Positions 11,225 to 44,346 of a stretch of 64,000 nucleotides of DNA are shown in pieces. The notes beneath the pieces are model-generated. The model did not search any database and had not been told where the DNA came from. It saw nothing but the letters and a program-made list of their open reading frames with translations. The position numbers were made by a program, and so were the translations under genes. Origin of the DNA: Crambe crambe (Eukaryota; Porifera; Demospongiae; Poecilosclerida; Crambeidae); assembly GCA_963924555.1 (NCBI GenBank), contig OZ004586.1, positions 4,794,501 to 4,858,500 on the forward strand. Direction: 5' to 3'. Each line of letters starts with the position of its first letter. Within the stretch, counting starts at the first letter, position 1.

Positions 11225-11535
11225 ACAAGTAAGGGAAAAAATATTTATTCTAAATAAAAAAGAGAAGTAGGGATAGTTGTGTGCAGTTCAAAAAAGTTCA
11301 GAGTGAACTTCAATCAAGAACCCCTTACCCATCACCAACTACGAGGTAACTATTCCTACTTCACTCCCTTTATATCTCATCATAGGAGTGGAGTAGGAAT
11401 AGTTGGCTCATAGTTGGTGATGGGTAAGGGGTTACTTGACTGATGTTCACTCTTGTTGCTGAACTTTTTGGAACTGCACACAGCCATCCCTACTTCTTTT
11501 TTTTATTTAGAATTAATTTTTTTTCCTTTACTTGT
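11225..11535. mobile_element. Foldback MITE, copy 2
   Basis: Ends ACAAGTAAGGGAAAAAA and TTTTTTTCCTTTACTTGT are inverted. Inner arms pair over about 140 bp with mismatches (GAAGTAGGGATAG with its inverse CATCCCTACTTC; CCCCTTACCCATCACCAACT with its inverse). It is the same family as 8901-9181 by its terminal sequence. No ORF. Confidence 0.75.
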
Positions 11536-12689
11536 ATTAATAGGGCTAGGGGCCGGGGGTTAGGCTCGAGAGTTTCTGGCGTGCACAGCAAACAATGAGC
11601 TACGCGTACAAGACTACATAATTATAGTTAGATCCTGTTTTGCGATCGTGATGGCTCTTTTAAAGTTCTTGAAGACAGAGGAAGGGAGAGTGTTTCATTG
11701 ACAGAAGCTCAGTTAATGGAGATAGATCGTGAAGTGAAATGAAGAGGACCGAGCAAACTATTAGCCAGAGGGAAGAACAATCGTTACACTTGGACCTGCA
11801 AATGCAGCTGCACGTTTTTCTCAGCTCTTTGATTTCAATGTAAGCTATCTACTATTTGCCAATTTTAGCTAAATGAAATGGCTTCATTTCTTAACAGGTA
11901 AATAAATCAACTTATTGAAGGTTGAGAACTGAATACTATGGTGGCCGAGAAGGGTCACCCGCGACCGCTTCACAAATATTCACTGCCGCCCGCAGTATCC
12001 ATAATACCGCCAGCGGTACCCCCCACATACCGCCCGCGGTTGGTGCGCGCGCATGCATGACAGATCTGGAGACCCTTTACCCAGTACCACGTGTACGTAC
12101 GTGTCGCGATCGCGCATGAGCTGCAGATCCGGAGACCCTTTACCCAGTCATTGATGTACTGAATTGCATCTATATTTTTCACCGAGATACGCCGAAAGAA
12201 ATGCATCAAGTCCTAAATCCTCCATATCCATTTTTAAAACAATTTTGCACCTTATATATAATTATCTCTGTTGCAGTATATTTATTATTATGATTCAGAA
12301 TGAAAGAATAGATTCATGACTAAAAGTTTGTCCTGTTCCACACACTAAAAATCTAGCACAAAAGAGAACAGAATATTGACATCATTATAATTACTATTTT
12401 TATTTCGCTAGATGATAGCTACCTTATCACTGGTTGCATGTTTGCTGTGCTTCTTCAAACATAATTGTATTACTTCATGATATTATATTGAAGACGTAAG
12501 GGGCCAATTCCCCTCCTCTCTTGTCCACTGCAGTGAGTAGGCCATGCTGCTTCATCAATAGTTCTACCTGCACAATTACGAAATAATAGGTAGGGAAACC
12601 TGGCCATAGTGGAAGTAAATGAGGCAACTGACTTGCTCTATCAAAATAATACTATTTCATAGCTATCTTCTGTAATAAAATGAACATAC

Positions 12690-13233
12690 ATCAATTTTCT
12701 TGATGGCAACAACACTTCCATACAAATTCCCTCTGTACACTGCCCCAAACCACCTTTCCCAAGCGAATTCTTCTCATCAAGCCACTTGTGCAGTAACTGA
12801 GTGTCTCTTCATCTACTATAAGAAATTATGCACAAGATTAACACTAACAATTGAAGTGGGGGAAGACCCTATCTTTTAGTTACCTGCATGAGATCTACCC
12901 AGCCCACTTGGCACATGTACTGTTTGAGGTGATATCTGTATTGACACTGTAAGAATAATTGACATTAGAATTCCAGAAGGCTAGCCACCCTAATATTCAC
13001 CTCCACCAGAGCTGATCTTCCCAGATGGTTCCCCAGTGGGTGCACTAGCCGGTGCCTGGATACTCTCTGAAAATGCATACCAACAAGGTAGAAGTCGCCA
13101 CACAGCACGATATCCACGCAATCCATTTATTGTGCAGAGTACATGCTGCAGATTGGAAGCTGCCTAAATAATAAGTACAAAATAGCCAATACATACCTCA
13201 ATGGCACTCCACATCACCCCAGATGGGAGGTCC
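12690..13233 (-). pseudogene. Spliced kinase-like gene fragment inside the long-TIR element
   Basis: Four successive minus-strand exons are visible, most with good splice signals. They are 13233-13197, 13163-13001 (codes NLQHVLCTINGLRGYRAVW and later ASAPTGEPSGKISSGG, with donor GTGAAT), 12946-12884 (acceptor TTCTTACAG, donor GTAACT; codes VSIQISPQTVHVPSGLGRSH) and 12815-12690 (acceptor TTCTTATAG, donor GTATGT). The last encodes WLDEKNSLGKGG and FGAVYRGNLYGSVVAIKKI, a protein-kinase glycine loop and the VAIK lysine strand. One base is missing between GKGG and FGAVY, and another frame break lies near the exon start, so the copy is dead. The three internal junctions are phase-compatible. Kept introns imply capture of genomic DNA rather than retrotransposition. 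Kinase subfamily is unknown; an IRAK/RLK-like type is possible. Confidence 0.6.
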
Positions 13234-13719
13234 CTACAGCATCTATTCAGGCCAAGCCTCTTTTATCTCCTTTTCAGCCAGCTTAAACTACTTTGAACAA
13301 AGTAACTTAAGATTCCTGCTTAGGCCGAACCAATTAAATATCCTGTTTCTCATCACAAAAATATGAAAAATCTAATGCTGCATGCGAAAACAAAAACACG
13401 AGGACTTTCCAGCTGCACAGAGTTATGTAGCTAGATTATTTTAATAGCTAGCCAGCCTAGCTAACTTGGTCTACACAAGCTGCTAACTAGCTAGTGTGTG
13501 TGCCATTAAAAAGAGCATTTTTTTTTGTTGCCTAATTTAAGCAGCTGTCACAAATTACTCACAATGAGTCTCTTTATGATTAGACTGGCACAGCAAAGAA
13601 AAAGTTTTGTTTCAATTTTTGCAAAAATCAATGAGGGAGCTGATAAGAAACAGGAAAATTAATTGGTTTTGCCTTATGGAATTAAACTAGCTCTGGGTTT
13701 GGACCTTCTTGATAGACCC

Positions 13720-13800
13720 TAAAGCCGATGCACTATCCTTTGATAGCTCCTACCAGAGTAAAAATATTCGGTCAGTAGCTCATCAACACCTGCAAAGATA
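13720..13800 (-). other. Short coding-like exon, possible transposase remnant
   Basis: After a good minus-strand acceptor (TTATCTTTGCAG) the sequence reads VDELLTEYFYSGRSYQRIVHRL and then a stop. The pattern (acidic start, YF-SG-SY-I--L) resembles the N-terminal helix-turn-helix region of some integrase-type transposases, from memory and weakly. It may be the remnant of the element's own gene. Confidence 0.25.
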
Positions 13801-14567
13801 AAAGAAATCAGTATAGGCTCAGCCAGTAAAGCTGTATACTCACCATTCGACCTTGACACGTAGTATAAATGACTGGGTAAAGGGTCTCCGGATCTGTCGA
13901 TGTCATGCGCATGCGCGCGCCAACTGCGGGCGGTATGTGGGGGGTACCGCTGGCGGTATTGTGGATACCGCGGGCGGCAATGAATATTTGCGAAGCGGTC
14001 GCGGGTGACCCTTCTCGGCCACCATAGAATACCTTAGTCAGCTGAAGTTAGCATCTCAGAAAGATGTCACAGTCAAAAGTTTACCAACAAAACCTCAGTG
14101 AAGGCCTCTTCTTTTAGGACAAGATTTAGACTGAGCAGTACAGGATTACATCAAAGCATTAAGGATAGCTGGAGGAGTTTTAAATACAACATTTTTAATG
14201 GCAGCTGCCAATGGTATTGTTAAGGCTAAGGATTTTAGCCATCTAGCTTCTCATGGTGGTAATATTAATATCAGCAAAGGCTGGGCTTGATCTTTATTAA
14301 ACCATAATTATGAAACGTAAATGTTCAAATGCTGGGAAAGTTTCTACACCAGATTTTAAGAAAATTAAAGTCCTCATAAATGATATTCCAAACCAGTTGA
14401 TCGTAAATTGGGGTCTATCTTTGCTTCCAACTGGTCGGTGGACAATGCATTGTGCTGGAGAGAAGGTGGTACCAATTATCCATGTAGATGATAAGCGGCA
14501 AATTACTGCTGTGCATGCTGCTAACATGACAGGTGAGTTGAGTGTGTGCATTGGTCACTGAAACAGC

Positions 14568-16430: not shown

Positions 16431-16437
16431 AGTGCAT

Positions 16438-16955
16438 CTAAATAAAAAAGTGAAGTAGGGATAGCCACAAAATTTCGCTACATTTTTTACTATTCCTATT
16501 ACTCCTAACCCTCCTAATTACTTCACTCCCCCTCAGCAACAAGTGTGTCAAGTAACCCATCACCAAACTCAAGAACCACAGCAATATTACTAAACTACTA
16601 TTCCTACTTCACTCCTAGGCCTCCTAATTTCAATAACAACACACATATCACCCTATCCCTATTTCTCTCCTGCCTCATGGATGGAGTGCAGTAGGGATAG
16701 CTTGCTTGATATGTGTGTGGTTATTGAAATTAGTAGGCCAAGGAGTGAAGTAGGAATAGTACTTTCGTAATATTGCTGTGATTCTTGAGTTAAGTGACAA
16801 GCAAGTGATTACTTGACTCACTTGTTGCTGAGGGGAGTGAAGTAGTGATTTAAATAGGTGATATAGGTGTGGTCGTCGAAATTAGGAGGGCTAGGAGTGA
16901 TAGGAAAAGCTGCAGCTAAATTCATGGCTATCCCTACTTCACTTTTTTATTTAAA
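16438..16955. mobile_element. Foldback MITE, copy 3, with nested palindromic arms
   Basis: Outer ends CTAAATAAAAAAGTGAAGTAG and its inverse CTACTTCACTTTTTTATTT pair. Several internal blocks also pair around a centre near 16675, such as GAAATTAG with CTAATTTC and CTTGTTGCTGAGGGGAGTG with its inverse. GTGAAGTAGGGATAG is shared with the 11225-11535 element. Arms have diverged with small indels. Confidence 0.65.
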
Positions 16956-16967
16956 AGAAATTTTTGG

Positions 16968-35549: not shown

Positions 35550-44346
<8,797 letters not shown>

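Follow-up and report, generated by a model that had tools for sequence, protein, structure and literature searches.

The 64,000-nucleotide stretch of sponge (Crambe crambe) DNA analysed here, hereafter the window (C9:4794501-4858500 in a 143-Mb, 119-contig genome, C9 being our handle for contig OZ004586.1), contains between positions 11937 and 14026 a transposable element with long, CpG-rich terminal inverted repeats (TIRs), flanked on either side by a GAATAC target-site duplication (TSD). The original prediction, made from the letters of the window, read this element as Pack-type, that is, as a DNA transposon that had captured a multi-exon fragment of a host kinase gene. We find that its interior descends from two genes, a transposase and a kinase, and that it is almost certainly a deletion derivative, no longer autonomous, of an IS3EU-type DNA transposon with both genes. 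In that two-gene lineage the kinase is resident, lying inside the same TIRs and TSDs as the transposase. The features of the element are listed below; numbers beginning with L denote genomic loci fetched for comparison, L024 being a fuller relative and L060-L062 empty insertion sites.

11931..11936, no strand: GAATAC TSD, left copy; present once in L060-L062
11937..14026, no strand: the element, almost certainly non-autonomous, IS3EU-type and internally deleted, as judged by termini, TSD, family, map onto L024 and empty sites
11937..12105, plus strand: left TIR, CpG-rich; element positions 1-169 against 1919-2090, 89%
12420..12540, minus strand: remnant of the kinase C-lobe exon (K7), split over two frames; two pieces, 95% identity to K7 of L024
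12589..12601, no strand: junction of deletion 1 (kinase exons K4-K6 lost relative to L024); element 653/665 corresponds to L024 1852/2894
12663..12800, minus strand: kinase glycine-loop/VAIK exon (K3), frameshifted, limits approximate; from exon comparison and the map onto L024
12840..12843, no strand: junction of deletion 2 (about 150 bp); element 907/904 corresponds to L024 3153/3304
12844..13087, minus strand: putative kinase-gene linker, the stretch between the Ig-like and glycine-loop exons of L024; element 904-1153 corresponds to L024 3304-3562, 93%
13088..13089, no strand: junction of deletion 3 (3.3 kb lost, comprising the N-terminal exons of the kinase gene and T2-T5 of the transposase gene); element 1153/1152 corresponds to L024 3562/6891
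13197..13319, minus strand: first recognised transposase exon (T1); 93% identity to T1 of L024
13323..13673, no strand: nested miniature inverted-repeat transposable element (MITE) with TTA duplication, foreign to the ancestral element; without match in L019-L024
13855..14026, minus strand: right TIR, CpG-rich; pairs with the left arm, 89%
14027..14032, no strand: GAATAC TSD, right copy; present once in L060-L062

The ends of the element read TATGG..CCATA; it starts TATGGTGGCCGAGAAGGG and finishes with the complement of TATGGTGGCCGAGAAGGG. The long GC-rich inverted repeats described in the original prediction are indeed at these ends, with an ungapped core of 130 nt that is 92% complementary and a gapped alignment over 169/172 nt at 89%, and the description of the arms as CpG-rich was also right: observed/expected CpG is 1.10 and 1.24 in the arms versus 0.29 in the interior and 0.35 in the window. 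We joined the two flanks with a single GAATAC and searched the genome with this 805-nt query, which matched C9:4581450-4582266 over its full length at 97% and five more places on C9 at 81-83% across the joint. Inspection of the letters at three paralogous empty sites on the same contig (L060, L061 and L062) revealed one unbroken GAATAC in each, indicating that a transposon did insert here, into locally repeated sequence. The empty sites also rule out a resident host gene as the source of the exons in the window. The insertion target, represented by the window flanks 11600-11936 and 14033-14500, is repeated locally on the same contig at C9:4.34-4.77 Mb with 81-97% identity.

Derivation of the window element

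The interior is collinear with L024 (contig C20, 6.76 kb), which carries both transposase and kinase exons, minus three internal stretches, and only T1, the linker stretch, K3 and K7 are retained. In L024, T1 has a phase-0 join to the catalytic exon T2. The minus-strand exons of the original prediction do contain coding remnants of several exons, but the 5'-most remnant that we recognise (13197-13319) is a transposase exon and not a kinase exon; the exon series predicted there is chimeric, part transposase and part kinase, and was joined through deletion. A piece of K3 is present where a glycine-loop/VAIK exon had been proposed; its length differs by one base from L009, L010, L011 and L024, which shifts the frame. 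Because K3 is frameshifted and K7 lies in two frames, the window copy encodes neither protein. The absence of an intact transposase had been correctly noted, T1 being the only transposase exon kept, and the general picture of a non-autonomous long-TIR element with pieces of an intron-containing kinase gene holds. TTA flanks the nested MITE at 13323-13673, which has ends GGCCRAACCAATTAA and recurs at more than 20 other places in the genome; its TTA duplication resembles that of Harbinger-type MITEs.

We fetched 16 additional places whose ends match those of the element (L009-L024, some of them one-ended). A 6-bp duplication flanks 10 of the 12 short or L024-family loci that have both ends (none in L012 or L015) and nine of the ten longer loci that have both ends (none in L039, and perhaps 7 bp in L048). 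TATGG stands at the untruncated ends of the short and L024-family loci, and a separate, pattern-free search for inverted repeats also gave TATGG or TACGG ends; a further end search, of the longer loci L029-L048, used a TAYGG-type pattern and hence is not independent evidence for the terminus. Seven other short copies (L009, L012, L013, L019, L020, L021 and L023) likewise follow the order of L024 over most of their length and lack internal stretches of it, and internal deletion is the usual origin of non-autonomous cut-and-paste derivatives. The family has the TA..TA termini (TAYGG..CCRTA) and the 6-bp TSDs of IS3EU transposons, and its fuller relatives have a DDD/E integrase-like transposase, of which the window copy keeps T1 only. 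We take PF24764 to be the IS3EU transposase domain and draw the assignment also from the ends and the TSD. IS3EU elements of rust fungi are described with TAYGG..CCRTA ends and 6-bp TSDs in section 3.1.3 of PMC12730594.

Two genes in one mobile unit

Twenty loci (L029-L048) were fetched around transposase matches, giving 21 with L024. The fuller relatives are 4.6-8.3 kb long and carry an intron-containing, integrase-like transposase gene and an IRAK/Pelle-type kinase gene, usually tail to tail. Transposase exons of the integrase-like type are present in L024 and L029-L048, and their motifs WHxDGYDK, RxDxGTEN and RIE provide the D, D and E, with acidic residues in all six families compared; L047 has the variants WHFDAYEK and KIE. 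After exon joining, the L031 transposase scored 96 bits against PF24764 and the L031 kinase 98.6 bits against PF07714.

The kinase gene runs from K1 through an Ig-like K2 (in some loci), K3 with the glycine loop and VAIK, K4, K5 with HGD/HQD-IK and K6 with DFG to K7, the C-lobe exon. The closest solved chains include plant receptor-like kinases (RLKs), IRAK1 and IRAK4, indicating a kinase of IRAK/Pelle type. Kinase-domain similarity and the catalytic Lys, Asp and DFG are found in the family, with frame-broken pieces of K3 and K7 surviving in the window. HGD/HQD-IK and DFG are features in common with IRAK/Pelle (RLK) kinases; unlike these, the transposon-type exons compared have DFGF, as against DFGL in four of five host-like ones, the N-terminal domain has no assigned family, and an Ig-like exon is present in some loci. 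A tree of transposon and host kinases, built from a single exon of 67 residues, lacked the length for firm support. Animal IRAKs carry an N-terminal death domain; the N-terminal exons of the transposon gene that were searched for one had no Pfam match at E up to 1. K1 is a conserved N-terminal domain that AlphaFold2 models as strand-helix-strand-helix-strand (mean pLDDT 74.9, pTM 0.64), and a sequence search for its family found none (best E 0.54). K2, which we call Ig-like from its Cys/Trp/Tyr-x-Cys pattern, occurs in L024, L029, L031, L033, L034 and L041 and has weak Pfam matches (E 0.07-0.08).

Both TIR ends and a TSD enclose both genes in nine of the 20 loci L029-L048 and, with L024 included, in 10 of 21. 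L039 has both ends and no duplication, and one or both ends were not found in the other ten. The TSDs of the ten enclosed loci are as follows.

L029 CGCTAG; L032 CTTTTT; L033 ATGTTG; L036 CATAAG; L038 GCTATG
L044 GCATGT; L045 GAAATG; L046 GATTTA; L048 GACTTC(T); L024 ATTACT

The association extends across the genome, where our searches scored the best candidates only, so that all counts are lower bounds. A kinase-exon match lies within 10 kb of a transposase exon at 33 of 50 genome places, in convergent orientation at 31 and in tandem at two (L024 and C12:4088083). The spacing between the two matches is mostly 1.1-1.7 kb and the orientation nearly constant; random placement on one 143-Mb circle would yield about 0.5 pairs among 50 places. 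Three of the 17 initial negatives gained kinase pieces (L030 with K3 and K7, L034 with K1 and K2 only, and C3:2986174, paired with C3:2985485), bringing the count to 36 of 50, and kinase-gene exons are present in all 20 loci L029-L048. As a control, 60 strong PF24764 places were used that were matched in one stretch and so are intronless over the profile (contiguous places); one of these lies within 10 kb of a kinase match, at 8.4 kb. Identity within families is 97.3-99.7% for L038 (seven loci), 97.2-99.3% for L045 (five) and 94.2-99.2% for L029 (four), and likeness of up to 99.7% points to fairly recent spread. Contig C3 carries many PF24764 and transposase-exon matches, often short or with stops. 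Kinase-like open frames occur every few kb to tens of kb at C13:2.24-2.46 Mb and C12:0.71-0.82 Mb, resembling arrays of host kinase genes.

Several points weigh against treating the two genes as one unit. L029-L048 were chosen from the 50 places after many kinase matches had been seen alongside, so 20 of 20 is a non-random count. No kinase piece was found at 14 of the 50 places, and one family of five copies (C12:2900632, C12:6556770, C15:4695525, C9:4670662 and C3:7558871) had no kinase in any search; its kinase may have been lost or be too diverged. The control was queried with kinases of the kinase lineage, and a diverged kinase beside other transposases would escape it. Neighbouring kinase matches merge into 75 kinase loci, of which 43 have no transposase match nearby (short copies, host-like genes and unclassified loci). 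Finally, the genes are in tandem and not convergent in L024, which represents the subfamily of the window, and in L034.

Conservation, descent and possible role of the kinase

The kinase is conserved. VA(I/V)K, (H/Y)xD(I/L)K and DFG are retained in stop-free K3, K5 and K6 at 18 of the 21 loci, with Tyr for the His of HxD in L036; among the exceptions, L030 and L034 miss part of K3/K5/K6 and L035 has a broken K3. Amino-acid identity of the kinase between families is 44-68%, the six families differing at 32-56% of the residues compared. In nine of nine family pairs the proportion of nonsynonymous differences (pN) is 0.20-0.39, versus 0.72-0.92 for synonymous differences (pS), and the transposase is much alike. 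An intron is predicted between K4 and K5 in phase 0 in four of four models and between K5 and K6 in phase 2 in five of six families; at the latter join the exception is L045, where the program picked another join across a 1.6-kb insert. A host-like gene, L049, has candidate introns at K4/K5 in phase 0, K5/K6 in phase 2 and K6/K6b in phase 0, the last as in L045. Kinase and transposase trees of the six families, with L049 left out, have the same topology, in which L024 groups with L029/L031, and L038/L032 group with L040, then L045/L046, then L047. Together the kept residues, introns, low pN and matching trees fit a single early acquisition of the kinase with its introns, followed by common descent.

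This account has its own difficulties. Synonymous divergence (dS) has reached saturation for all but one of the nine kinase pairs, the sole finite ratio being 0.20, and two nodes of the kinase tree are weak (50 and 33). The host status of L049 rests on no transposase match having been seen nearby, without a full gene model. Breaks are visible in several loci, and no wholly intact two-gene copy was established among the loci examined.

Our best explanation as a whole, which we consider very probable, is that the window holds a degraded two-gene IS3EU-type element whose kinase would be a working part of the transposon. That the kinase has been kept with the transposase across divergent families suggests such a working part and not a stray captured fragment. 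The ancestor of the lineage would have taken the kinase, introns included, from a host IRAK-like gene, and the kinase would have been retained for helping the transposon, a benefit that we regard as likely. By phosphorylating its target, either the transposase or some host factor, it may license transposition; alternatively, it may alter host signalling or blunt a host response so that copies are tolerated. Between action on the transposition machinery and action on host immune-type signalling we see little to choose. Mobility would come from the transposase of fuller copies, which would bind the TIRs and act on full copies and, in trans, on short ones of the window type.

Three other explanations were weighed against this one. 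The kinase could be a neutral passenger that became fixed at an early stage of one autonomous lineage but is not used by it, and the five-copy transposase family in which no kinase was found would fit such a history. It is nevertheless an unlikely one: catalytic residues and most intron positions persist across six families while pN stays far below pS, kinase-gene exons occur at 20 of 20 fetched transposase loci, and other PF24764 transposases, as well as fungal IS3EU in the sections cited below, have a different enzyme in the matching position.

Pack-type capture, in which a non-autonomous TIR transposon takes up a piece of a resident kinase gene, fares considerably worse. Pack-TYPE elements and Pack-MULEs have interiors that come from host genes and not from the transposon, and their cargo differs between copies. 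The window element is non-autonomous, bounded by TIRs and equipped with several kinase-exon pieces, and the host-like IRAK gene L049 has intron positions in common with the transposon kinase. Its interior, however, includes T1 and is collinear with L024. The original prediction proposed looking for other elements with different cargo; in the short relatives that we fetched, the cargo consists of parts of these same two genes. The glycine-loop exon of the window family is 88-90% identical to that of L024, whereas places with no transposase nearby match the glycine-loop exon or the DFG exon at about 40-62% over 29-67 residues, the few higher matches being of transposon type. L024 also combines the same interior with a transposase, the finding that the original prediction had itself set against capture. 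We therefore hold Pack-type capture to be very improbable, and for the window element L024 and T1 refute it; capture of a host kinase with its introns is still likely, by the ancestor of the two-gene elements and not by the window element. The poorest candidate is a host gene family, duplicated or mobile in its own right, that lies beside the transposase by chance, which might account for the 43 of 75 kinase loci without a transposase nearby (some of them short copies, some host-like, some unclassified) and which we all but dismiss given TIRs and TSDs around both genes at ten loci, a near-constant spacing and orientation, and about 0.5 pairs expected at random.

Elsewhere in the window, fold-backs with nested inverted arms lie at 11225-11535 (arms of 77 and 49 nt) and 16437-16965, with arm sequence common to both. 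Two very regular tandem repeats, at 41459-41736 (33-bp unit, 8.4 copies) and 42905-43184 (22-bp unit, 12.7 copies), have 98% matches. A pure CT run of 123 bp lies at 36921-37043, and an Rfam search of the window returned 0 matches.

Partner enzymes and known systems

A second open reading frame (ORF) in L063, a 4.0-kb locus with a contiguous PF24764 transposase, prompted a search for HECT domains (PF00632). The PF24764 set comprised the best 60 of 155 matches, down to 159 bits, and the HECT set 72 of 120 matches, mostly one per neighbouring group. A HECT match lies within 10 kb of 26 of the 60 contiguous PF24764 places, and 22 of these are convergent at 0.3-1.7 kb (for example C5:4846550/4847687 and C9:3776827/3775481); at the 50 kinase-lineage places there was none within 10 kb. 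About 0.6 such pairs would be expected under random placement. The HECT partners are called from modest profile scores (about 25-41 bits, cut-off 23.9) together with position, at loci known from matches and not from full reads, and the places would belong to IS3EU as judged by PF24764. A similar arrangement is described for fungi, where alpha-kinase and transposase genes stand in opposite orientations in all families of TET+ IS3EU (PMC12730594, section 4.1). An alpha-kinase partner of the fungal kind was considered for the sponge and rejected: by eye, the distance from any of the seven matches (on C20, C9 and C17) to the PF24764 and transposase-exon places listed exceeds 100 kb.

From these cases we tentatively propose, with somewhat less than even confidence, that IS3EU-type transposons have an accessory-enzyme slot, usually convergent to the transposase, which unrelated signalling enzymes fill in each lineage: an IRAK/Pelle kinase, a HECT-type ligase or the fungal alpha-kinase. 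Such a slot would reflect a general need, during transposition, to modify a protein, be it the transposase itself or a defence factor of the host. Telling against it, a HECT match within 10 kb is lacking at 34 of the 60 contiguous PF24764 places, and four of the 26 HECT matches are not convergent. L063 itself, the one contiguous PF24764 locus that we read, has neither a long inverted repeat nor HECT, and its second ORF points away from the transposase. A sequence search found no family for that ORF, and its homology to the K1 domain received no support (probability 0.1%). Beside the PF24764 transposase of L063, positions 238-1083 form a long tandem repeat of ESPIYYIGVSYILYRSLLYI-like units.

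A transposase flanked by repeats is the usual picture of a eukaryotic DNA transposon. In the present case one transposon lineage has kept a kinase of innate-immunity type while its families diverged at 32-56% of residues. If such partners are needed, these transposons would manipulate host protein signalling or regulate their own transposase by modification, and the presence of kinase-type and HECT-type elements in one genome makes direct testing possible. There is also a warning for annotation: IRAK-like kinase and HECT-like exons in such genomes may be transposon genes.

Among titles and abstract openings on IS3EU, GingerRoot and transposon kinases, we found none reporting an IRAK/Pelle kinase in IS3EU, with most subscription literature and Repbase outside this coverage. 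Precedents for individual aspects exist. In passages of PMC10853768, Styx of Zymoseptoria is described as derived from a two-protein IS3EU element, with further genes acquired; it is alike in its IS3EU origin with two proteins, and unlike in that those passages name no kinase on the element. The TBE elements of Oxytricha (Tc1/mariner) have an accessory kinase-domain ORF for which purifying selection is reported (excerpts of PMC4724952 and PMC12242761). They differ in transposase superfamily, in combining a zinc finger with the kinase and in their ciliate host, and offer an earlier case of a DNA transposon with a kinase-domain ORF that is under constraint and has no known function. KolobokP, as outlined in part of PMC9587614, likewise has a transposase with a downstream second enzyme on opposite strands, in animals, although the transposase is of Kolobok type and the enzyme a His-Me finger nuclease.

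Closer comparisons come from PF24764 transposases themselves. The PF24764 and HECT-like elements of the same genome resemble the kinase lineage in pairing a PF24764 transposase with a convergent partner enzyme, and differ in a HECT ubiquitin ligase-like partner and a contiguous transposase core. TET+ IS3EU of fungi, in the cited parts of PMC12730594, also has a kinase gene opposed to the transposase; there it is an alpha-kinase with a TET/JBP gene between, whereas the sponge has a typical Pkinase-type domain, TET/JBP not having been searched for. With the IS3EU (IS3EU/GingerRoot) superfamily of Repbase, as characterised in portions of PMC10045372 and PMC12730594, the sponge elements have in common the TA..TA termini, 6-bp TSDs and DDD/E transposase. 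They differ from known IS3EU in an intron-rich transposase and in an IRAK/Pelle-type kinase as the second gene.

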